64,000 nucleotides of DNA from Granulosicoccus antarcticus IMCC3135 (GCF_002215215.1 NZ_CP018632.1:4708501-4772500), one strand, 5' to 3'; counted from the first letter of the stretch, positions 45,752 through 59,667 are shown. Program-made: numbers and translations. Notes: generated by a model from the letters alone, not told the origin.

Positions 45752-46969
45752 TCAGTTACCACTCGACTTCTTTATCTCATCCCTGCGCTGGCGCGCCAAT
45801 GGGTGATCTGGATCTTCTCGCAGTATGGTTTCATAAAGCTCCAGAGCGTTAGAGCCTGGAGGTTCAGTCAGCTCATTGGAGACCTCGTGCATTTGGGCCA
45901 GTTTCAGCAGTCGCTGGATTTTAGGTGAATCTTCACTGAGCTCAGGTACCTCAACGGCTAACGGCTCCACAGGTGACGGCTCTGCGGGTAGCGTCTCGTC
46001 CAACTCCGGTTTGCCAATTGAAAGAGCTGTTTCTGGTACCGCATTACCATTCTTATCGATGAACGACCACCCGGCACCCAATGCAATAACAAGTGCTATC
46101 AGTGCACCACCGAGCCACAGCTTTTTTGTGCCTGTATTCTCTGGTTCTGGTGATACAGCAAGCAGTGCATTCATATCTGCCAGAACGGCATGGTGATCCT
46201 GATACCGATCATCAGGCTCTTTTGCCATAAGGCGCGATATCAATGGCTGATAAGCACTCTCGCTATCTGGCAACAGTGGGATGGGGTCATTGACGTGTTG
46301 TAGCATCAACCCCATTGGATCAGTGGATTTATAAGGCCGCTCTCCACTGAGCATTTCAAAAAGCAGAACACCAATACTGTAAAGATCAGACCTGCCATCT
46401 ATTTCTGCAAGCCCTTTGGCCTGCTCAGGGCTCATGTAGGCAGCAGTTCCAATAGCCGCACCCGCCACTGTTAGCTGTGTTTTCTCGTTAAGTGATTTCG
46501 CGATACCGAAGTCAGCGAGCATCGCACGACCTGATTCGTTGAACAAGATATTGGCTGGTTTGACGTCACGATGGATTACACCACTTTCGTGCGCATAACC
46601 AAGTGCATCAACAATCGGTAGTAATATTTCAAGCGGATGGTTGTAGGGATTTCCAGAATCAAGAATGTCCCTCAGGTTGGGGCCTGAGAGGTATTGCATA
46701 GCGATATAGTACATATCTCCTATGCAACCCACATCATAGATATGAATAATATTGGGATGGTTGTCAAGATTGGCGCATGTTCGCGCCTCTTTTAAAAATC
46801 GTTTGCAGAAATCATCATCATCTGCCAACTTTGCGTCCATGATCTTGAGCGCAACATTGATCTGCAGGCTTATGTGTTGAGCCAGATAAACCTTTGCAAA
46901 CCCACCCTCACCAAGCAATTTGTTTTCATCAATGATGTAGCCTGGTATCGATGGGGTTTCAGTAAGCAT
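45752..46969 (-). CDS. Transmembrane Ser/Thr protein kinase (PknB/STPK type)
   Basis: A 405-residue Hanks-type kinase. The catalytic domain (about 10-265) is complete: glycine loop GEGGFAKVY, K42 in ALKIMD, catalytic loop HRDVKPAN with D135, DFG at 153-155, and GTAAYMSPEQ. One membrane helix (about 284-303) leads to a Pro/Glu-rich extracytoplasmic segment and a TPR-like helix pair (NALELYETILREDPDHPLARQRRDEI). It lies 18 bp after the beta-barrel gene on the same strand. With the PP2C phosphatase near 56 kb it makes a kinase-phosphatase pair. Substrates are unknown. Confidence 0.92.
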   Translation of the reverse strand: MLTETPSIPGYIIDENKLLGEGGFAKVYLAQHISLQINVALKIMDAKLADDDDFCKRFLKEARTCANLDNHPNIIHIYDVGCIGDMYYIAMQYLSGPNLRDILDSGNPYNHPLEILLPIVDALGYAHESGVIHRDVKPANILFNESGRAMLADFGIAKSLNEKTQLTVAGAAIGTAAYMSPEQAKGLAEIDGRSDLYSIGVLLFEMLSGERPYKSTDPMGLMLQHVNDPIPLLPDSESAYQPLISRLMAKEPDDRYQDHHAVLADMNALLAVSPEPENTGTKKLWLGGALIALVIALGAGWSFIDKNGNAVPETALSIGKPELDETLPAEPSPVEPLAVEVPELSEDSPKIQRLLKLAQMHEVSNELTEPPGSNALELYETILREDPDHPLARQRRDEIKKSSGN

Positions 46970-46987: not shown

Positions 46988-48523
46988 CTACATGAACTCG
47001 AATCTGATGCCTGCTGCGATCGACAGCTCTTTCAAGTCTTCCAGGCTTTGCAGAGAACGAATCTCCGTATAGAGCTGAGTGCCACCTTGCAGAACCGCAG
47101 ATGCGCCTGCTCCAATGGTGTAGTAATTTCGATCAGGACTGTCGGTCACCACTATCAGCTGTGTGTTCCGAGGATCATGCACATAAGTAGATACGATCTG
47201 CCGGCTATCATCATCGAACTCATGAATCAACTCGACGCTTAACTGCGGTGAAATGATTGCCTTTGAAGTGCTGAATGTTTTTGACAATCTGAAGCCGACA
47301 GCCCCAGTCAGTGATTCTATGCTTTGCTTATTGACGCTTAACTTCAAGGCAGAGTCGCCCGTCTCCTGATACGCATCCAGATCTACTGACAGCAATGAGA
47401 TGCGGCCATAGGGTGCAAAGGACAATCCGCCCGATCTGAATTCGTAGCCACCACCAACTCCAAATCTGAATGCCGAACTATCCGTCTCTGCACGCACCGT
47501 ATCATTCACGCCATCATTGGCTTGAGGATTATCAGGTTGACTATTGTCCGTCGCACCTTCCGCACCGTTGATGACAATTCGACGAGTCATGTCGAAGCTA
47601 CCTGAACTGAATCCAGCAATCACATCAACGTAGGCAGAATCTGAGAACCACATGCCATAGCCGCTGATGTTGATTTGTTCTGACTCCAGATCACCGCCAT
47701 CAACGTCGAGCGTTGTATCAAAATCTGTTGTTGACGATGTATAACCAAGATTCACTCCGCCCACGATAGTCGGGGTAATCAAGTAGTCGAATCCCAGGGA
47801 TAAACCGGTGGAACTTGCTTCAAAACCATCCTCACCTTCTGTTGCATCTTTATCTGATCTGGCTCCAAGCCCATTGACATAAAAGCCAAAAGGGCTGGCC
47901 AATGCATCGTCCGCTGCTGCTGCACCGCCAACAAGAGAATCCGTTGCCAGACTACCCGCAGCGATCATGCCCCCTGCTCCTGTCATGTTCGCGCTGCTGA
48001 GTTGTAACGATGAAACCCTCGACAGCAAGCTCGACAAACGGCGACCAACAGTCGAAGACTGCCTTGCAACCGATTCGGTGGCCAGACTACCTGCCGCTGC
48101 GACCTCTTCAGCTGCGGCATTCTGTACTGCTGCGCCTAATTCGTCAGCTGTTATACCCAGATCTTTAGCCGTACCAGCCGAACCTGGCTCAGCGCCTGCC
48201 AGTACATTAGCGGTGTGTACCATCTCCCCGCATTTGTCGAAGAGTACTTGTTGCTGGGCAACATCGTTTCGTGAATTATCAATTCCACCATCAGGATCCT
48301 GGCTGGCATTGATAAAGGCACCACAGACTGTTTGTATCGCATCGCCAGTACGCTGTTGCAACTCTGTAAACCCGTCTGTTCTTCCAAGGCTAGTCGAGGG
48401 CTCAAAGTCCTGCGCATAGACAAGGCCTCCACCGAGAGTGGTTACGAACAGACAAAATATTGAACCTGTTTTGATGATTCCCGGGGCCAAGTGTAAATCC
48501 CGGCTGTACTCGACTCGAATCAT
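46988..48523 (-). CDS. Outer-membrane beta-barrel protein with autotransporter-type barrel
   Basis: A 511-residue secreted protein. After the signal peptide (ending VYAQ) comes an Ala/Ser-rich helical region (about 35-200), then a barrel of about 12 amphipathic strands from FGFYVNGLGARSD to the terminal AAGIRFEFM. The terminal aromatic residue followed by Met is a slight variant of the usual C-terminal Phe. There is no long passenger domain, so secretion of an effector is not evident. ATG 48523 has GGAG upstream, better than GTG 48538. It is the first gene of a two-gene transcript with the kinase and is paralogous in plan to the gene at 58384. Confidence 0.8.
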   Translation of the reverse strand: MIRVEYSRDLHLAPGIIKTGSIFCLFVTTLGGGLVYAQDFEPSTSLGRTDGFTELQQRTGDAIQTVCGAFINASQDPDGGIDNSRNDVAQQQVLFDKCGEMVHTANVLAGAEPGSAGTAKDLGITADELGAAVQNAAAEEVAAAGSLATESVARQSSTVGRRLSSLLSRVSSLQLSSANMTGAGGMIAAGSLATDSLVGGAAAADDALASPFGFYVNGLGARSDKDATEGEDGFEASSTGLSLGFDYLITPTIVGGVNLGYTSSTTDFDTTLDVDGGDLESEQINISGYGMWFSDSAYVDVIAGFSSGSFDMTRRIVINGAEGATDNSQPDNPQANDGVNDTVRAETDSSAFRFGVGGGYEFRSGGLSFAPYGRISLLSVDLDAYQETGDSALKLSVNKQSIESLTGAVGFRLSKTFSTSKAIISPQLSVELIHEFDDDSRQIVSTYVHDPRNTQLIVVTDSPDRNYYTIGAGASAVLQGGTQLYTEIRSLQSLEDLKELSIAAGIRFEFM

Positions 48524-49248
48524 ACGAATGTTCTCCACTCTTCAATATAGATAGCGTTAGAAAAAGGCGCAGTTATTCAAACACTTGCTACTACCCCATA
48601 ACCGCACATGATCAGAGCTAATAGTGCAACTCGAATCCATTACGAATTGACTGGCTTTGACGCACTTTCAGGCAATGGAAGCAATGTCACGTTGTTTGGC
48701 ATTATCAAACACTTTCAAAATATATACAAATGGTCACACTTATGTATTTCCGAATCAAACGGCTCGACAAACAAACTTTATATGGAGCATGAATAAAACG
48801 TTTATTCCTATTTTTACAGTCGTTTAGGCAGTTTCCTGCTATCCAATTCATTCAACATTGTTGACTGAAACGTCGAAGCCTGCACTCATAAACTAGCCTA
48901 AAGGCGCAACACTCAACGAGGTATTCAAGTGCGTGAGTTCACTGTTTCAAGTGTGAATGTTTTTTGACAGCCTGACGCATATGCTTTGTGCGTCACATTT
49001 TCTGGATACACGTTGCCATCATTATCGACACCCTCATCAGAAGTGACAGCTCCTGAGGTCGACAAATTCCAACCTGCCTGACTCAATCATTCCCAGATCA
49101 CACTTATGACTCACTCGCCTAGACTAAAGGATAAGTTCATTCCATTAGTCGTAGAGAAAGAGTAGGCTCGCCGTTTGCTGACATGTGGAGATAAGCAAGT
49201 ACATCGCCGCGCTTGCTTTGCCCAATCTGGTCCAGGGCAAAGAATGCT
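48524..49248. other. 725-bp gap without a convincing gene
   Basis: It holds the promoter of the barrel-kinase operon (right after 48523) and the 3' end of the VWA-like gene. A plus-strand frame of 62 codons at 48608-48796 has no recognisable product and no ribosome site. I see no tRNA, repeat array or strong hairpin. Confidence 0.6.
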
Positions 49249-50454
49249 CTAATTCTGTGTCTTGTGTTTAAGCTGAGTAATATTCCTTAGTTCTTCAAGC
49301 TCATCTATGACACCCGTTTCACAGGTAATCAATGAGTCTTCGGACGCAATGCCTATTCGTTGTACTGTGGCATCGTTACTTTCTAGCTGTGCTTTCTTGT
49401 TGCTCATGACAGGTTTTCGAGGAGCAGTAACGTCAAGTTCTGACTCCATATCGTCAGTAAGCAAGTCAGAACCGGAGATCCCCTGTGATTCATCTGTATG
49501 CGGTATGAGCAGAGTGGAATCTGAATCAGCTTCGCTGGCACGCGCTGTCCGCACGATTGTATTACCCTGCTTCGGTGCCAGGTACCGGCTCAATGATTCT
49601 TTAGTAACCGACGCGCCCCTATCGTCTATCACCTCATGCTTACTGTTACGCCTACGTTTAAGCATAAATATTATGATCGCCCCGACCACTAAGACCAAAA
49701 GCGCCACAATTGTCAGAAGTACAGGAATACCTACCCCCTTCTTGTCTTCCTGCCTCTGTTCAGGCAACAGAATTGAACTGACCGCCGTTGGTTGATCAGA
49801 GAGCACTGCGACCGGCAACTCCTGTGTATCACCCGGAAGCGTGAAAGGCAGCACTAAAGAGAGTTGATTGATAGCATCAGATGCATCGCTGAAAGTAATA
49901 ACCTTGTTGTTCGCAAACCCTTGAATGATTGGACTTAACGCGGATGGCGGAGCATTTTGCGGCACTGCCAGAATAATGGCAATGGACTTACTGGCCGCAT
50001 CGGGCAACAACACGAGTTCCAACCAGTCAGAATACTTGGCGACCGCATTTGCATCGGCAAGTAAAATATCACTGTTACCAAACACCAGTAACACTCCACC
50101 TTCTGTGCTCAGTTCGCTAATGCCTTTCTCGATCCCGACGGCAATATTACTGAATTCACTGGGCTTAACATTGGAAAACACCTGGCTTATTCGTTCCAGA
50201 TGAGCGTCATCAGCAACAGTCAGGTCTGTACTTCGCTGGAACACCTCATCAAAGATCACGACACCAACGGAGTTTTCATCACCAGCAGCGCCTGCAACTT
50301 GTAAGGCTACTTCGTTAGCTGTGCGTAGTGAACTTTCGTCTAGTGCCGCGTCAACAAGTATCTCAACAGAGCTTGCAGCAGCATTGGAACACGGCACCAA
50401 AACTCCAAACATGGCACATAGGCAGTACGCCTTTAAATCATAATTGAGTCTCAT
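49249..50454 (-). CDS. Single-pass membrane protein with VWA-like extracytoplasmic domain
   Basis: A 401-residue protein with a signal peptide (ending SNAAA). A VWA-like domain (about 30-205) starts VEILVDAALDESS where a MIDAS DxSxS would sit; only D and S are partly kept, so metal binding is doubtful. One membrane helix (VLLTIVALLVLVVGAIIIFML, about 245-266) is followed by a basic stop-transfer and a 130-residue Ser/Thr/Asp-rich cytoplasmic tail (for example NTIVRTARA, SDSTLLIPHTDES). The tail is a plausible substrate of the neighbouring kinase, but this is inference. It is divergent from the caspase gene. Confidence 0.65.
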   Translation of the reverse strand: MRLNYDLKAYCLCAMFGVLVPCSNAAASSVEILVDAALDESSLRTANEVALQVAGAAGDENSVGVVIFDEVFQRSTDLTVADDAHLERISQVFSNVKPSEFSNIAVGIEKGISELSTEGGVLLVFGNSDILLADANAVAKYSDWLELVLLPDAASKSIAIILAVPQNAPPSALSPIIQGFANNKVITFSDASDAINQLSLVLPFTLPGDTQELPVAVLSDQPTAVSSILLPEQRQEDKKGVGIPVLLTIVALLVLVVGAIIIFMLKRRRNSKHEVIDDRGASVTKESLSRYLAPKQGNTIVRTARASEADSDSTLLIPHTDESQGISGSDLLTDDMESELDVTAPRKPVMSNKKAQLESNDATVQRIGIASEDSLITCETGVIDELEELRNITQLKHKTQN

Positions 50455-50694: not shown

Positions 50695-53600
50695 ATGTCG
50701 AGTATGAGGACTTGTTTATTTTGTCAAAAAATACTTGATGCCCTGTACAAGAGCGGTGTGTTTCTTGTCACGTCAGTCACTGTATTTGTGGTGGGTTGTG
50801 CGACCAACGCAGTGCCACCAGATTCCGCCCCCCTCTCGCGAGACGCAGACCGCTTGTTGATTGTAGATTGTCTTTTGCCAGGACAGCTGCGCAGACTGGG
50901 ACGATCCATCACCTACCTTACCCCTCGCCGCCCGGTCAAGGTTCCGACTTCCGAATGTGAGATCCGCGGTGGTGAATACGTTGCCTACGATCGAGCAAAT
51001 TTCTCTACATCGTTGAAAATCTGGTTGCCCAAGGCTGAATCGGGCGACCCTGAAGCACAAACTTATGTCGGAGAAATATTCGAAAAAGGTCTGGGATTGC
51101 AGGCCGATCCGGTTGTTGCTGCAAGTTGGTATCAAAAAGCTGCCGATCAACGGTTTTCACGCGCTCAAGTAAATCTCGGATATTTATACGAAAGCGGAAT
51201 CGGTGTGCCGCAAGATCTGGTCAAGGCGATGAACTACTATCGCGAAGCGGCTGGATTCGACGAAGGGAGTCTTGAGTACACAACGGCATTGCAGGTTGCA
51301 AATCGAAAACAGCAAACACTCGATCTGGTGTCCCGAGAACAGGATATAGAGCGGCTTAACCAGACTGTTGCACAACTGGAAATAAAAAATACCGAGTTGC
51401 GCAATCGACAAGTCGAGCTTCGAACCCAGCAAAACAATATCAATGCCTTGGCCGATGAAACCGCACAACAACGAAAACGCGTACTCGAATTAGGAGTCAG
51501 CACCACAAGTTCGACGAGCATCAATCAAAGCAGTGAGAAACTGGTCACAGCTTTGGAACAACTTGATACGCTTAATCTGCAACTCTCCACGACCGAATCT
51601 GAAAAGGCAGAACTGCTAGGCAACTTGCGGGAGCAACAAGCAAGCACAGACAGTCTGCGACAGAAATTCAATGCCAGCAACAAGGAATTGAACGCAGCCA
51701 ACGAAAACCTGTTGGCTCAAAAACAAAAGATATCAAAGCTCGAATCAGCCTCACTCTCAGGTGGAGACAGCTCTGCACAAATGCTTCAGTTGCAAAGCAG
51801 ACTGACTAATGCACAACAGGCGTTTGAAAAGGAAGCCTCAAAAACAGACAACTTGCAGCGTACACTTGCTCAAAAATCCACGCTGCTACAAAATCAGATA
51901 GCCAACGCTGAATCCAGAGAGTTGTCACTCAAAGGCGAGCTTTCTCGCTTGTCCGGAAATGTCGCTGACACACAGCTATCCGCTGCACAATTGAAGAACG
52001 AACTAACAGCACAGATCAACACCCGTCAGTCTGAAGTCGAACAGCTCAAACGACAACTCAACAATGCTGTGCGTGAGTTGTCAGTGACACAGGCTGGACT
52101 GGAAAACACCCAAGGTCGACTAGGAACACCCAGCCCAGAACTTGCCAGAGCCAACACTGTTCTGCAACAGCAAAACACAGAATTCACTCAACAGATTGCT
52201 GCGGCGATACAACTGGAAGAATCCCTGAAAACCGAACTTGACAGACTCGGATCATCACTGGCAGATGAACAGATTGACAAAGCCAGACTGCAGCGTCAAA
52301 TCACAGCTCAGCTACAGGAACAGACACAACAAGCGCAACAATTACAGAGTCAACTACAACGTTCCAATTCTCAACTGGAGCAAGCCAGAATCCAGATTGA
52401 GCAAGGTGGCAAAAGCAATACTTCCCAACCGGCACAATTTGCACAATTGCAGCAGCAGCTAGCTCAACAACAATCGACACTGGCATTGCAAATCGAAGGT
52501 ACTGAACGACAGCAGAAACAATTACTGTCGGACTTGGAGTTGATGCGTGTTCGTGCAGTTGACTCTGAAGCACAGAATAAGTTGTTAAAGGGAGAGATAG
52601 CCCAACAGGAGATGTTGATTGCATCCCTGTCTACAAGGTATGAAGAATCTGTGAGTGCACTCTCTGCCAAGGACAGCAACCTGGGCACCCAGCAAACGCA
52701 AATAGCGCAATTGCAAGAGGAGTTGCAACGAGTTCGAGAATCCTCAATCAACTCGACGCTCCTGGCACGAGCTGATAACAAGGATCTTCAAGAGACACTG
52801 AATACTGAACGTGAAACTTTTGCAGCACTGCAGCAAGAAGTTGAAAACTTGAGAGGCAAGCAGACGGGCGAATCTCGCACTCTTGAAAACCAACTGGCAG
52901 CAGCTGATCAGACAGAAGCATTGCTCAAGCGACAACTTGAGAGCAGTAGTGATGTGGCAGAGAGCCTGCAACAGCAGTTAATGGCTCAACAGCAGCAGTA
53001 TCAGGCGCAACTCAAAGAGGCAGAGAATGAAGTGGTTGCCGTCAAAGGCGAACTTAACCGTGCTCAAGACGAAAGAATCGATGCGCAATTAAAACTTGCA
53101 AGCCTTGAATCCGATCTCGTGCAGCAGCAACAAATGATTTCTACTCAGGAATCTGAAATAAACAAGCTGCAGTCGGAAGTTACCAAGGCCCAGGCTCAGG
53201 CCGACAAGCCAGCAATCGAACAAGTACCACAGATTGTAAATGCCGGACCTATTATCGAAATCATCGAACCCGACATCACGATAACCCGTGGTGGTCCCGC
53301 TATGAAGATTCTGAGCAATGCCGCAAAGTCATTTGATGTTATTGGTAAAATTTCCCCATCAAATAACATTCTCAGCTTCAAGATCGATAGCACCTCTGTT
53401 GATCTTAATGACAATGGCGTATTCAAATACCCAGCTGACGTCTCATCGCCTTCTCTCCGAATGGTCGCTATTGATGATGCAGGTGAACGAACTGATCTGG
53501 AGCTGCAACTCTCACAAATGAGAAGTGCGAACACTACCGCCGAACAACCAAGCTCGGATATATCAGGTATAGAGTTTGGCAATTTCCATGCACTCATCAT

Positions 53601-54393
53601 CGGCAACAATCGTTTCGAGAATCTTCAGAACCTCAAGACGGCAGAAAATGACGCCATTGCGGTAGAAGCATTGTTAAGAGAAAAGTACGGGTTCAAGACA
53701 AAGTTGCTATTGAATGCCACACGTTACGATATGCTCAGCGCGCTCAACAGCATGCGAGAGAATCTGACCTCTGAGGACAATCTTCTCATCTACTACGCGG
53801 GGCATGGCGAGCTTGCGAACGAGACCGGATATTGGCTGCCAGTTGATGCCGAACCCGATAGCGATGTGAACTGGATACCAAACTCCACGATCACCAAGTA
53901 TGTAGAAACGATAAACGCTAAACATATCATTGTCATCGCGGATTCCTGCTATTCCGGCACGCTTTCCAGAACATCACTATCCCGACTGGGAAAAGGACTA
54001 ACGACACAACAAAAACATAATTGGTATGAAACGATTGCCAGTGCAAAAGTACGGACGGTATTTACATCTGGGGGCTTGAAACCCGTATTGGATAGCGTCG
54101 GTGGTTCATCTCAGCATTCAATATTCTCAGCAGCCTTCCTGAACGAGCTGGAAACATCCGATGAGCCAGTAGTGTCCACCTACAAACTTTTCTTGAGGGT
54201 ACAGGAGAGAGTGAAGGCAGAAGCCACCCGACTGGGTCTCGAACAAAATCCTCAATACTCACCCATGCAATTTGCAGGACATGAATCTGGAGAATTTCTG
54301 TTTATTTCAGATCAGGATAATGTCACTAGCAAGCTCGAAATCCCAACATATCTTGTAGTTAAAGACGCATCCAGGGTTGCTGCGTTGCGTTAG
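50695..54393 (+). CDS. Lipoprotein with Sel1 repeats, long coiled coil and C-terminal caspase-like (C14) protease
   Basis: A 1232-residue protein. The N-terminal hydrophobic segment ends in a lipobox, VVGC with C35. Residues about 105-190 hold Sel1-type repeats (AQTYVGEIFEKGLGL, AQVNLGYLYESGIGV). About 210-840 is an almost unbroken Gln/Glu/Leu-rich coiled coil. About 860-940 is a small beta domain (VIGKISPSNNILSFKIDS). From about 955 comes a caspase fold: FHALIIGNNRF, NLKTAENDAIAVEALL, catalytic H1037 in IYYAGHGE and C1085 in IADSCYSG. Orthocaspases cleave after basic residues. Targets are unknown, and the whole is probably periplasmic. A GAGGTGG ribosome site supports the start. Confidence 0.88.
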   Translation: MSSMRTCLFCQKILDALYKSGVFLVTSVTVFVVGCATNAVPPDSAPLSRDADRLLIVDCLLPGQLRRLGRSITYLTPRRPVKVPTSECEIRGGEYVAYDRANFSTSLKIWLPKAESGDPEAQTYVGEIFEKGLGLQADPVVAASWYQKAADQRFSRAQVNLGYLYESGIGVPQDLVKAMNYYREAAGFDEGSLEYTTALQVANRKQQTLDLVSREQDIERLNQTVAQLEIKNTELRNRQVELRTQQNNINALADETAQQRKRVLELGVSTTSSTSINQSSEKLVTALEQLDTLNLQLSTTESEKAELLGNLREQQASTDSLRQKFNASNKELNAANENLLAQKQKISKLESASLSGGDSSAQMLQLQSRLTNAQQAFEKEASKTDNLQRTLAQKSTLLQNQIANAESRELSLKGELSRLSGNVADTQLSAAQLKNELTAQINTRQSEVEQLKRQLNNAVRELSVTQAGLENTQGRLGTPSPELARANTVLQQQNTEFTQQIAAAIQLEESLKTELDRLGSSLADEQIDKARLQRQITAQLQEQTQQAQQLQSQLQRSNSQLEQARIQIEQGGKSNTSQPAQFAQLQQQLAQQQSTLALQIEGTERQQKQLLSDLELMRVRAVDSEAQNKLLKGEIAQQEMLIASLSTRYEESVSALSAKDSNLGTQQTQIAQLQEELQRVRESSINSTLLARADNKDLQETLNTERETFAALQQEVENLRGKQTGESRTLENQLAAADQTEALLKRQLESSSDVAESLQQQLMAQQQQYQAQLKEAENEVVAVKGELNRAQDERIDAQLKLASLESDLVQQQQMISTQESEINKLQSEVTKAQAQADKPAIEQVPQIVNAGPIIEIIEPDITITRGGPAMKILSNAAKSFDVIGKISPSNNILSFKIDSTSVDLNDNGVFKYPADVSSPSLRMVAIDDAGERTDLELQLSQMRSANTTAEQPSSDISGIEFGNFHALIIGNNRFENLQNLKTAENDAIAVEALLREKYGFKTKLLLNATRYDMLSALNSMRENLTSEDNLLIYYAGHGELANETGYWLPVDAEPDSDVNWIPNSTITKYVETINAKHIIVIADSCYSGTLSRTSLSRLGKGLTTQQKHNWYETIASAKVRTVFTSGGLKPVLDSVGGSSQHSIFSAAFLNELETSDEPVVSTYKLFLRVQERVKAEATRLGLEQNPQYSPMQFAGHESGEFLFISDQDNVTSKLEIPTYLVVKDASRVAALR

Positions 54394-55477: not shown

Positions 55478-56296
55478 CTACACGCTTCTGCGTTGCACCG
55501 TCTTATCCAGATCTTCTGTTTTATTGAAAGTAGCCGAGGTGCCATCCACCTTAACTATAACAACGGATATATTGTCATTACCTCCGTTTGCGTTTGCAAT
55601 GGAGATCAACTCATTGCAGGCCATATCAGGTGAATGTCGTATTTTTTGCACAAGAACTTTCTGCAGAAGCTTCGCATCAATCAAATTACTCAGACCATCG
55701 GAACATAACAGGAAAACATCTCCTTCGGAAACATTCTCCAGCGTAATATCAGGGAATATGTTTTCCAATAACCCGATTGCCTTGATCAATATATTTTTTG
55801 AGGGTGCCGTGCCTTTCTGCCCAGCATCGTACCACTCTTGATACATTGTATGATCACGAGTTAGTTGCTGTAAATCACCTCCTCTAAGTCGGTATAGCCT
55901 GCTATCTCCGACGTTAAAAATGACGACCTGCTTCTTGTTTTGCAAGAAATATGCACCAACCAGGGTGGTACCCATCCCCTGACCGAGGTTAGAACCGTTA
56001 TTGCGATTCTTGGCCAATATCAATTCATTACATGCATTGACGGCATCCAGAACAATGTTGTAGTAGTCTTCTTGCCTGACAGGTTCACGTATATTTTCAG
56101 CATGAATCTTGATACGAGACATAAGCTCATCAAGCGTTGACTGGCTTGCAACCTCACCCGACATATGCCCTCCCATGCCATCTGCGATTGCATAGAGATT
56201 TGCTTCTGAATCAACGGTCAGCGAATCCTCATTGTGTTTTCGCGCCTGCCCAACATCTGTTACTCCGGCTGCATCCAGTTTTAGCGCTAATTTCAT
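55478..56296 (-). CDS. PP2C-family Ser/Thr protein phosphatase
   Basis: A 272-residue soluble phosphatase with all main metal and phosphate motifs: GQARKHNEDS, YAIADGMGGHMSGE with D39, VIFNVGDSRLYRLR, LLCSDGLSNLI and GGNDNISVVIVKV. It resembles PstP/PrpC phosphatases that reverse Hanks-type kinases. The kinase at 45752 is the obvious counterpart. It heads a two-gene set with the TPR/CcmI-like protein. Confidence 0.9.
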   Translation of the reverse strand: MKLALKLDAAGVTDVGQARKHNEDSLTVDSEANLYAIADGMGGHMSGEVASQSTLDELMSRIKIHAENIREPVRQEDYYNIVLDAVNACNELILAKNRNNGSNLGQGMGTTLVGAYFLQNKKQVVIFNVGDSRLYRLRGGDLQQLTRDHTMYQEWYDAGQKGTAPSKNILIKAIGLLENIFPDITLENVSEGDVFLLCSDGLSNLIDAKLLQKVLVQKIRHSPDMACNELISIANANGGNDNISVVIVKVDGTSATFNKTEDLDKTVQRRSV

Positions 56297-57434: not shown

Positions 57435-58394
57435 TCATGCACACAAATCAAGTTGCTCGACCGATATAGTAGAAGGCATATAAGTGAATACTTCTGGATT
57501 AGTTCCAAAACTCAGTAACAGATTACCTTCCGACTCGCCAATGATATAGGTGAATATTCTGAATGGATCATGATACTGACCACCGCCGTCCGAAAACAAC
57601 GTAAGAAAATTGAAGCCAAAACAACCTTGCTCGGTTCTTCCGTAAAACCTGATCAACCCTTGGCCAGAAAGTTCCACATATTGATCTGATTCAGGAAAAA
57701 TCCATAATCCTTTCAGTTCCAGCGGAAATTCATCACCAACAACGCCTGATGACCTGATGTAAGCTGGACGAGTAGATAAAGTAGTGGGCCTGTTTTCGGC
57801 AGTAAAACTAATTTCATTTCCATAAAACAACTGCCCTCTCTCGACCAGGTATATCGAATAGTCCGCATAGGGTGTGGGGCGTCGGGAAACATCATCTCCA
57901 GGCCTGTTGGAACAGCTGCTAATATCATAGTCGACACCGACTTCCCAATCACTTATTTCACAAGTTGCCTGAGTATTGAAGAAAAGCACTGAATCGTCAG
58001 AGCGCGGTATTATCGAATAGGTTTTAGTGACGAAATTTATATTACTGACGGTTCCCCTGTCAGGTAGAACATAAGAAAAACTCTCCTCTACGGTACCAGT
58101 AGTTTTGGTGTCGAACGCAGCTATAGAACACGTTAAATCAAAATAGCCCGATACCGTCTTGGTAAACTTACCGTTCGTGAGAAATTCGATGGCAGTAGTC
58201 AGAGATAAGGAACCACTTGATGAATCACAAGGCGTAATCCAGCTGCCCACAATGGGACTGTTTGCGAGATCGGATGAACCGGTATCACTACTTCCGCCTC
58301 CACTACTGCACGACGCCATAAGAAATGGGAAAAGAACGACAATACGCCAGGCACGGTTTAGCAGGCGAGGAAGATCCGGAAACCTAGAACTCAT
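57435..58394 (-). CDS. Hypothetical lipoprotein
   Basis: A 319-residue protein with a basic N-terminus, hydrophobic core and lipobox LMASC, followed by a Gly/Ser linker. The rest is beta-rich with several Cys (ITPCDSSSG, LTCSIAAFD, EQGCFGFNF). I recognise no family. The ATG at 58394 lies inside the end of the upstream barrel gene (11-base overlap), so both are co-translated. It is probably outer-membrane anchored and may be the barrel's partner. Confidence 0.65.
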   Translation of the reverse strand: MSSRFPDLPRLLNRAWRIVVLFPFLMASCSSGGGSSDTGSSDLANSPIVGSWITPCDSSSGSLSLTTAIEFLTNGKFTKTVSGYFDLTCSIAAFDTKTTGTVEESFSYVLPDRGTVSNINFVTKTYSIIPRSDDSVLFFNTQATCEISDWEVGVDYDISSCSNRPGDDVSRRPTPYADYSIYLVERGQLFYGNEISFTAENRPTTLSTRPAYIRSSGVVGDEFPLELKGLWIFPESDQYVELSGQGLIRFYGRTEQGCFGFNFLTLFSDGGGQYHDPFRIFTYIIGESEGNLLLSFGTNPEVFTYMPSTISVEQLDLCA

Positions 58395-59667
58395 ACCGTA
58401 TACCTGCGCCAAGATAAGTTTCAGAAACATTTTCATAACCGAGTAAAGACTGTAAATTGGCAAACAGCTGTAACCCGCTACGCAATACCGCAGTTGCGCC
58501 TCCTCCCAAATAGAAGTAATCAGAGTCGAGTTGACGTTCGGGAAATCGTTGCGCTACCGCAGCATTGGATACAGTTCCCTGACTGAATCCAGCAAGCGAG
58601 CCCCTTAGGCTGCTACTGGTATCCTTGAATTCGTGTATCCACTCAAAGTCTCCCTTCAAAGAGACAACGGCCACTGCCGTGCTAATGACATAGGTCGATC
58701 CAAATCCGACACCTGTAGTCAAGGATTCAACTTCCTGATCTGTCAAACGTAAAGCGAATCCGCCACCCGAGCCGGGCGCTGGATGCCCCGGTGAATTAGC
58801 GAGATCCAGTTGTTCACGATAGCCATCTATACTGACTTGAGCATAAGACAAGCGTGTGTATGGAGAATACTCGAATTGCCTGTATTGTCGCTTGAGACCA
58901 GTCGCAAAGCTGGCACGAACCAAATCACTATTAGTTTCGGCAACGATCACTTCATTGACACGATCCAGAAGAATGAAACTATCCTCATCGCGCAATCCAT
59001 TAACAGTCTGAGCGCGCCTGAAATCAAATTCTCCAGACCCTATACTGACGATACCATCGATGTAATAAGTATCATTTTCATGGATACCATAGAAGGAGAA
59101 AACATCAAATGACCCTTCTACATCATTGCTTACAACGTTTACCGATCCGGTTGTGGTGAAATTGTCCTTTGGTGCTGAACAGCCCGACACCTTGCTGGCA
59201 CCCAACATTACACCAACAAACGACGTTGAAGAAAGAGCATAGTCAATAGACAACGCTGTCGCTGTAGTATCCCAATCAATGCCTGCCCCCGGGTTTATTG
59301 ATTGCTCATCTCCCGTAGCACCAAACGCACTGACCAAAAGTCCGATTCTGCTGGAGATGCCATCCTCGTCGCCCGCAGCACTACCCGATATATCAGACTC
59401 CTGGTTCGACGCGACAATTAACGGATTCTGCCCACTGAGATTGGCTGATCGCCGTTGAAAATTTGTTCCAAACTCGAGTGTTCGTAGCCCCGCAGCGCTG
59501 GCCAGATCGATCGTATCCAGATCTGAATTGAACGGTGACAGTGGATCCAGATTTGAATTTTCCGAAAAATCTATTGTAGGGCAGCTAGCAACAGCATCGC
59601 TCAGGCTCAAGAACGGCCCTGCGAGCAGTAGAATGGTAACTGATTTCAATTTTCGATATTTTTTCAG
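58384..59667 (-). CDS. Outer-membrane beta-barrel protein, paralogue of the 46988 gene
   Basis: About 427 residues. A signal peptide (LKSVTILLLAGPFLSLSDAVAS) is followed by a short variable region, then a barrel from RIGLLVSAFGATGD to the C-terminal LGAGIRYEF with terminal Phe. Internal strands (DYALSSTSFVGVMLGASKVS, YYIDGIVSIGSGEFDFRRAQ, FYLGGGATAVLRSGLQLFAN) match those of the 46988 protein (YYTIGAGASAVLQGGTQLYT). No ATG fits; CTG 59667 or ATT 59670 lie after GGAGA, with TTG 59649 as alternative. It follows gdhA by under 30 bp. Confidence 0.75.
   Translation of the reverse strand: MKKYRKLKSVTILLLAGPFLSLSDAVASCPTIDFSENSNLDPLSPFNSDLDTIDLASAAGLRTLEFGTNFQRRSANLSGQNPLIVASNQESDISGSAAGDEDGISSRIGLLVSAFGATGDEQSINPGAGIDWDTTATALSIDYALSSTSFVGVMLGASKVSGCSAPKDNFTTTGSVNVVSNDVEGSFDVFSFYGIHENDTYYIDGIVSIGSGEFDFRRAQTVNGLRDEDSFILLDRVNEVIVAETNSDLVRASFATGLKRQYRQFEYSPYTRLSYAQVSIDGYREQLDLANSPGHPAPGSGGGFALRLTDQEVESLTTGVGFGSTYVISTAVAVVSLKGDFEWIHEFKDTSSSLRGSLAGFSQGTVSNAAVAQRFPERQLDSDYFYLGGGATAVLRSGLQLFANLQSLLGYENVSETYLGAGIRYEF

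Follow-up and report, generated by a model that had tools for sequence, protein, structure and literature searches.

Caspase homologues are widespread in bacteria and their roles mostly obscure; the usual discussion casts them as cell-death proteins of the cytoplasm. The stretch of DNA analysed here, a window of 64,000 nucleotides from Granulosicoccus antarcticus IMCC3135 (NZ_CP018632.1:4708501-4772500), encodes a caspase-like protease that, as read from its sequence, carries a predicted lipid anchor and a long coil between anchor and protease. What would a caspase do in such an arrangement, and with which partners? The features that bear on the question are given in Table 1.

Table 1. Genes and protein parts at the caspase locus, in window coordinates.
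Feature	Position	Strand	Basis
Membrane Ser/Thr kinase, 405 aa (kinase domain 15-260, TM 283-305, periplasmic tail)	45752..46969	-	Pfam PF00069, E 1e-46
Periplasmic tail of the kinase (LLKLAQMHEVSNELTEPPGSNALELYETILREDP)	45773..45925	-	
Outer-membrane protein with autotransporter beta-domain, 516 aa, 18 bp from the kinase gene	46988..48538	-	Pfam PF03797, E 2.5e-51
vWA-like membrane protein (no Pfam match), divergent from the caspase gene	49249..50454	-	
Lipoprotein caspase gene, 1232 aa	50695..54393	+	ORF translation
Predicted signal peptide and lipobox VVGC, predicted lipidated Cys35, Ala next	50695..50799	+	
DCLLP N-terminal domain, residues 50-115, invariant Cys59 and Cys88 (probable disulfide)	50842..51039	+	
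Two Sel1 repeats, residues ~116-190	51040..51264	+	Pfam PF08238; helical repeats in model
Coiled-coil spacer, residues ~205-840, internal duplication at offset 99	51307..53214	+	
Beta domain, residues ~850-935 (IEIIEP...TRG...)	53242..53499	+	
Caspase (Peptidase_C14) domain, residues 960-1205	53572..54309	+	Pfam; fold matches
Catalytic His1037	53803..53805	+	
Catalytic Cys1085 (DSCYSG)	53947..53949	+	
PP2C-type phosphatase (Stp1/IreP-like)	55478..56296	-	
Second autotransporter-beta-domain protein	58384..59649	-	

Parts of the caspase lipoprotein and their conservation

The caspase gene begins with an ATG immediately preceded by a putative Shine-Dalgarno sequence, GAGGTGGA. A search of the divergent intergenic region for an RNA element or a clear sigma-70 promoter gave nothing exceeding chance. 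The original prediction read the order of parts as lipobox, Sel1 repeats, coiled coil, beta domain and caspase, and each of the listed parts is there. A hydrophobic segment (residues 16-35) ends in the lipobox V-V-G-C35. Pfam finds the two Sel1 repeats at E 1.5e-17 (63.8 bits against a cut-off of 30.7) and the Peptidase_C14 domain over residues 965-1190 at E 6e-25 (88.7 bits against a cut-off of 21.4), and the catalytic dyad H1037/C1085 is intact exactly as claimed. What the prediction left out is a conserved domain of ~65 residues N-terminal to the Sel1 repeats, the DCLLP domain, with the signature 'DCLLPGQ..RQLG..RRPIKTT..CEIRGGEYVAYDR'. Pfam finds no death domain in the window protein, which has a single beta domain, N-terminal to the caspase; the beta domain of relatives bears a weak likeness to Glucodextran_B. 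There is no specific NCBIfam name for the protein, the nearest caspase model scoring 70 against a cut-off of 140.

The predicted long coil with the caspase at its end is borne out by a spacer of ~640-650 residues rich in Q, L, E and A. Its composition (only 4 Pro in 641 aa) and its heptad-like hydrophobic period of 3.5-3.55 residues (z 5.5 against shuffles) are those of a coiled coil. It resembles SMC coils (NCBIfam, E 2e-8). The hydrophobic periodicity is weak in the spacers of some relatives.

An AlphaFold model of residues 840-1217 shows the beta domain and a caspase fold with a mean pLDDT of 85. The best fold matches of the caspase part are MALT1 (Z 24.6) and the plant metacaspase AtMCA4 (Z 24.4); MALT1, metacaspases and caspases all match at Z 22-25, so the caspase-hemoglobinase fold is present. 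In the alignment D986 falls on MALT1 D365 and D1083 on MALT1 D462, which we take to be the acidic residues of the Arg-binding pocket. Cleavage after Arg or Lys is therefore predicted, and at P1 the caspase would be Arg/Lys-specific.

A profile of the DCLLP domain, run over 369 gammaproteobacterial genomes, gave 29 matches at E <= 2e-60 in 27 genomes, and the next matches appeared only at 4e-27 and were ordinary Sel1 proteins. The window's own genome holds no second full DCLLP protein, its other Sel1 matches being weak. Outside this search, the domain was found in only 3 of 398 genomes drawn by phylum, all three of the same class, an unstated number of the 398 lying outside that class. The family set used here has 37 members, the window protein and 36 others, of which 35 bear the caspase (window included). 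The identical part order is found in genomes of the window's own genus, family and class and in Methylococcales. Since it recurs across 35 full-length homologues, the order in the window is not a chance assembly. Both catalytic residues are kept in all 35 caspase-bearing homologues, so that none was found to lack the dyad. The DCLLP domain is the best conserved part, with a mean pairwise identity of 65%; the N-terminal domains stand at 63-65%, the caspase at 52% and the coil at 22%.

The same set bears on where the protein resides. A Cys at the lipobox position is present in all full-length members, two of them with atypical residues at -3, and Asp at +2 occurs in no member. By the rule established in E. 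coli, a lipoprotein without Asp at +2 is sorted to the outer membrane, and this sorting is therefore expected here. If the lipobox Cys is set aside, the Cys count is exactly three in 34 of the 35: one is catalytic, and the other two form an invariant pair in the DCLLP domain, at a spacing of 29 residues. With members reaching 1445 residues, this restriction to paired and catalytic Cys makes the protein look exported and disulfide-bonded. The original prediction of a lipid anchor stands up well in this light, and the features together argue for an exported outer-membrane lipoprotein. The caspase domain would then face the periplasm, or the lipoprotein may instead be exposed at the cell surface.

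Linked kinases and autotransporters

The original prediction did not touch on the conserved kinase and autotransporter neighbourhood, which is a stronger clue to function than the rod. The caspase gene has a kinase gene no more than 10 kb away in 22 of 27 genomes from 13 families (0.8 expected), and a PF03797 gene within the same distance in 19 of 27, also from 13 families (0.25 expected by chance), where the expected values derive from gene numbers per genome and the p-values ignore shared ancestry, the genomes not being independent. One or both of these genes are near the caspase gene in 25 of the 27 gammaproteobacterial genomes, spanning 16 families. For these linkage counts, the entry for genome G031 was corrected with locus L126. 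The autotransporter beta-domain of the window matches PF03797 at 175 bits against a cut-off of 26; only three such domains occur in its 7.78-Mb genome, and two of the three are no more than 5 kb from the caspase gene.

The arrangement varies among loci. Of the 37 loci, 21 have the kinase gene as a direct neighbour of the caspase gene, in the same orientation and 0-488 bp away. In the window the kinase and the autotransporter are encoded on the strand opposite to the caspase gene, 2-4 kb off. In four Methylococcales loci (L033-L036) the autotransporter gene is immediately adjoining and the kinase is absent nearby. Methylotuvimicrobium buryatense 5G has two copies of the caspase protein, one adjoined by an autotransporter gene, and its tailed kinase is encoded elsewhere in the genome. 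Homologues of the vWA-like protein adjoin the caspase in two loci (L049 and L050), and besides the window 6 loci have a PP2C phosphatase in the vicinity of the caspase.

Each linked kinase has a single TM and, beyond the membrane, a C-terminal tail of ~52 residues with the pattern LLxxAExHxxxGRLxxPPGSNAxDxYxxVLxxDP. No PASTA domain was found in the linked kinase by Pfam, and the NCBIfam model PknB_PASTA covers the kinase part only, below its cut-off. A profile of the tail was run over the 369 genomes, taking E <= 1e-16 as a strong match. All 20 strong matches, in 19 genomes, fall among the 27 genomes that have the DCLLP domain. Four of the strong-tail kinases (in G283, G110, G237 and G240) are encoded at a distance from the caspase and were outside the set from which the profile was built. 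In 6 loci (L100 and L103-L107) the adjoining kinase has a different tail, of the DUF4384 type. The kinase partner can therefore change, and one fixed contact between tail and caspase is not universal.

Fusions and losses indicate which parts belong together. Genomes G008 and G020 each encode a single protein that runs from kinase through TM and tail to caspase and retains the catalytic His and Cys; a search of both genomes found no DCLLP protein (a generic Sel1 match only) and 0 PF03797 domains. In G243 and G120 the reverse part is kept, a DCLLP-Sel1-beta protein, and the caspase and any kinase-tail match are absent. In G243 the autotransporter gene is 116 bp from the gene for this shortened protein. 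The simplest reading of the fusions and joint losses is two pairs joined by the long protein. The outer-membrane pair would be the DCLLP module and the autotransporter, and the inner-membrane pair the caspase and the kinase tail.

A candidate relay and its alternatives

We propose a relay that spans the envelope: a periplasmic Arg/Lys caspase would couple the outer-membrane module to the Ser/Thr kinase. We judge this to have about an even chance of being right. The lipoprotein would be anchored in the outer membrane with its caspase domain working in the periplasm. The autotransporter and the DCLLP-Sel1 module would sense the state of the surface or envelope at the outer membrane, and the flexible coil would allow the tethered beta-caspase unit to reach the inner membrane. 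There the caspase would bind or cut something in the periplasm, for which the kinase tail, or a partner bound to it, is the likeliest candidate. The kinase would relay the signal to the cytoplasm, where in some species the PP2C phosphatase would reverse it. Since the periplasm offers no ATP, phosphorylation of the caspase by the kinase is unlikely, and the direction from caspase to kinase is the more natural one. Both this direction and the substrate are what we infer for the relay. We count against it the DUF4384-type tails of the 6 loci, the placement of the window's partners, on the opposite strand and 2-4 kb away, the common descent left out of the linkage p-values, and the chance that the lipoprotein is displayed at the cell surface.

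A less likely arrangement is that the caspase is a processing protease, acting on the autotransporter or another envelope protein by maturation, trimming or shedding, with the kinase regulating caspase expression or some other process. This would suit the linkage of the autotransporter gene in 19 of 27 genomes and its adjoining position in L033-L036, where no kinase is nearby, and both proteins are predicted to reside in the outer membrane. However, it leaves unexplained the kinase-caspase fusions in genomes without an autotransporter and the retention of the DCLLP-autotransporter pair without a caspase. Also, a caspase-specific cleavage motif was sought in the autotransporters and not found. 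A candidate, the conserved pre-barrel motif NVxxRLxxLR, is present equally in autotransporters unlinked to the caspase. It is thus general to the barrel family and gives no indication of a specialised cleavage site, and we rejected it as the place of a cut.

The caspase fold and intact dyad might also belong to a periplasmic executioner of cell death or autolysis triggered by envelope damage, and prokaryotic caspase homologues are discussed in such terms (PMC3501461). We consider this improbable, since the loci have no constant hydrolase, pore or nuclease partner; what is constant is the kinase and the outer-membrane barrel protein. A protease of an anti-phage or other conflict system is more improbable still. 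The PADLOC caspase model does match, weakly and partially (E 1e-10), and there are generic kinase matches to PD-T4-6, but these matches are at the level of domains, the architecture is that of an exported lipoprotein, and known defence partner genes were not seen at the loci. The defence assignment was rejected, the domain matches being generic.

The original prediction had further proposed that the rod acts as a ruler, either holding the caspase at a set distance from a membrane or gauging the spacing of the envelope by its length. The long heptad-patterned coil is truly present, but the spacer between the end of the Sel1 repeats and the beta domain ranges from 103 to 848 residues across the caspase-bearing members, with the window's (~650) the second longest, and its sequence shows only the 22% identity given above. 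Spacers also contain internal duplications: at offset 99 in the window (score 164 against a shuffle maximum of 80) and at offset 173 in L046 (score 347 against a shuffle maximum of 102). The caspase-less members L108 and L109 are nearly spacer-free. At a helix rise of ~0.15 nm per residue, 650 residues would extend ~97 nm, far exceeding the width of the periplasm. An eightfold change of length by duplication is not what a ruler would undergo, and a flexible tether fits better. On the range of lengths and the duplications, both forms of the ruler idea were given up, and we leave them very little probability.

Orthocaspases that have been characterised are for the most part regarded as cytoplasmic, but a cytoplasmic protein with an unused signal peptide is scarcely credible here, given the lipobox-like Cys in all homologues, the confinement of other Cys to the pair and the catalytic residue in proteins of up to 1445 residues, and the position of the caspase C-terminal to the TM in the kinase fusions.

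Comparison with known systems

If the relay is right, a caspase outside the inner membrane with standing kinase and outer-membrane partners would give a bacterial caspase homologue a concrete, testable role, that of proteolytic signalling across the Gram-negative envelope. At least one organism that carries the protein, Methylotuvimicrobium buryatense 5G, is a methanotroph in laboratory culture, which makes knock-outs practical. In the literature searched, which was largely open-licence, we found no description of a gene set combining caspase, autotransporter, kinase and lipoprotein. Every part is of a known kind; the stable union of the parts and the periplasmic caspase appear to be undescribed, and there is a fair chance that the gene set is a new kind of system. 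Our most far-reaching proposal is a categorically new transenvelope system, in which an outer-membrane-anchored periplasmic caspase would turn a state of the surface or envelope, read by the autotransporter-type protein, into cytoplasmic Ser/Thr phosphorylation, through proteolysis or docking at the kinase tail. This proposal is tentative, and we put it somewhat short of evenly balanced.

The bacterial metacaspases or orthocaspases with Sel1 repeats are alike in having the p20-type caspase fold, the His-Cys dyad and Sel1 repeats in front. Such combinations are known: Sel1 occurs in 6% of the set of Asplund-Samuelsson et al. 2012 (PMC3501461), and one 'Sel1 x 3|metacaspase' is among the entries of PMC4933709. 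Sections of these two papers already describe a wide range of metacaspase operons, and the same sections make no mention of a lipobox, a DCLLP domain, a long coil or a kinase/autotransporter neighbourhood. The MALT1 paracaspase is the closest solved fold and the closest in sequence, shares the Arg-pocket acids and likewise has a beta domain adjoining the caspase. However, the identity is only ~21%, and the window protein is a predicted bacterial envelope lipoprotein without a death domain. In the solved MALT1 constructs the Ig domain is C-terminal to the caspase, whereas the beta domain here is N-terminal to it.

The kinase resembles the PASTA kinases of the PknB/PrkC type in its cytoplasmic Hanks domain, single TM, extracytoplasmic sensor and PP2C partner. 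It differs in lacking PASTA domains and having instead the short TPR-like tail, LLxxAExHxxxGRLxxPPGSNAxDxY. Finally, the logic proposed for the relay is the same as that of QseG-QseE (PMC6075780) and NlpE-Cpx (PMC6593411), in each of which a lipid-anchored periplasmic protein works with an inner-membrane sensor kinase. Those systems employ histidine kinases and lipoproteins that are not proteases, whereas here a caspase would work with a Ser/Thr kinase of the Hanks type.

Kinase–caspase fusions and caspase-less members

In two genomes of the same genus, the Ser/Thr kinase and the caspase are joined in a natural single-chain fusion, and both genomes lack the autotransporters and the lipoprotein with the conserved N-terminal DCLLP domain. 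At two other loci (L108 and L109), absence of the caspase is accompanied by loss of the tailed kinase; at L108, 116 bp lie between the remaining lipoprotein gene and the autotransporter gene. The motif NVxxRLxxLR precedes the barrel in many autotransporters, that of the window and relatives among them, and is found in caspase-linked and unlinked ones alike.

Further caspases and a recurrent lipoprotein

At L087 a second caspase, predicted to be exported, lies in the same cluster. The sole other caspase of the window's own genome has an N-terminus similar to peptidoglycan amidase. Near the caspase in many loci of a 15-locus cluster is a lipoprotein similar to alpha/beta hydrolases; none was seen within the window.

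Cyclase-like neighbours

The Methylococcales membrane protein is encoded immediately upstream of the caspase gene, the position of the kinase at other loci. The FHA/cyclase-like proteins are encoded close to the caspase/kinase/PP2C cluster. Their two ends, as read by eye, hint at a phosphothreonine–cyclase branch in the L105 and L107 lineages.

Coordinates of the caspase-family genes and their neighbours
Feature	Position	Strand
Kinase–TM–periplasmic tail–caspase	L051:9838-11970	-
Same	L052:8235-10298	+
DCLLP–Sel1–beta lipoprotein without caspase	L108:9815-10795	+
Same	L109:9087-10070	-
Autotransporter	window 46988-48538	
Beta domain + caspase, without DCLLP or Sel1	L087:14172-15716	-
C-terminal caspase, 994 aa	L054:8414-11395 (C1:878510)	-
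Alpha/beta-hydrolase-like lipoprotein, ~280 aa (examples; other loci too)	L089:11787-12674	
Same	L091:10399-11229	
Membrane protein, ~715 aa, weak guanylate-cyclase match (Methylococcales)	L036:4090-6237	
Same	L035:1002-3143	
FHA-like N-terminus, nucleotide-cyclase-like C-terminus	L105:10780-11706	
Same	L107:669-1613
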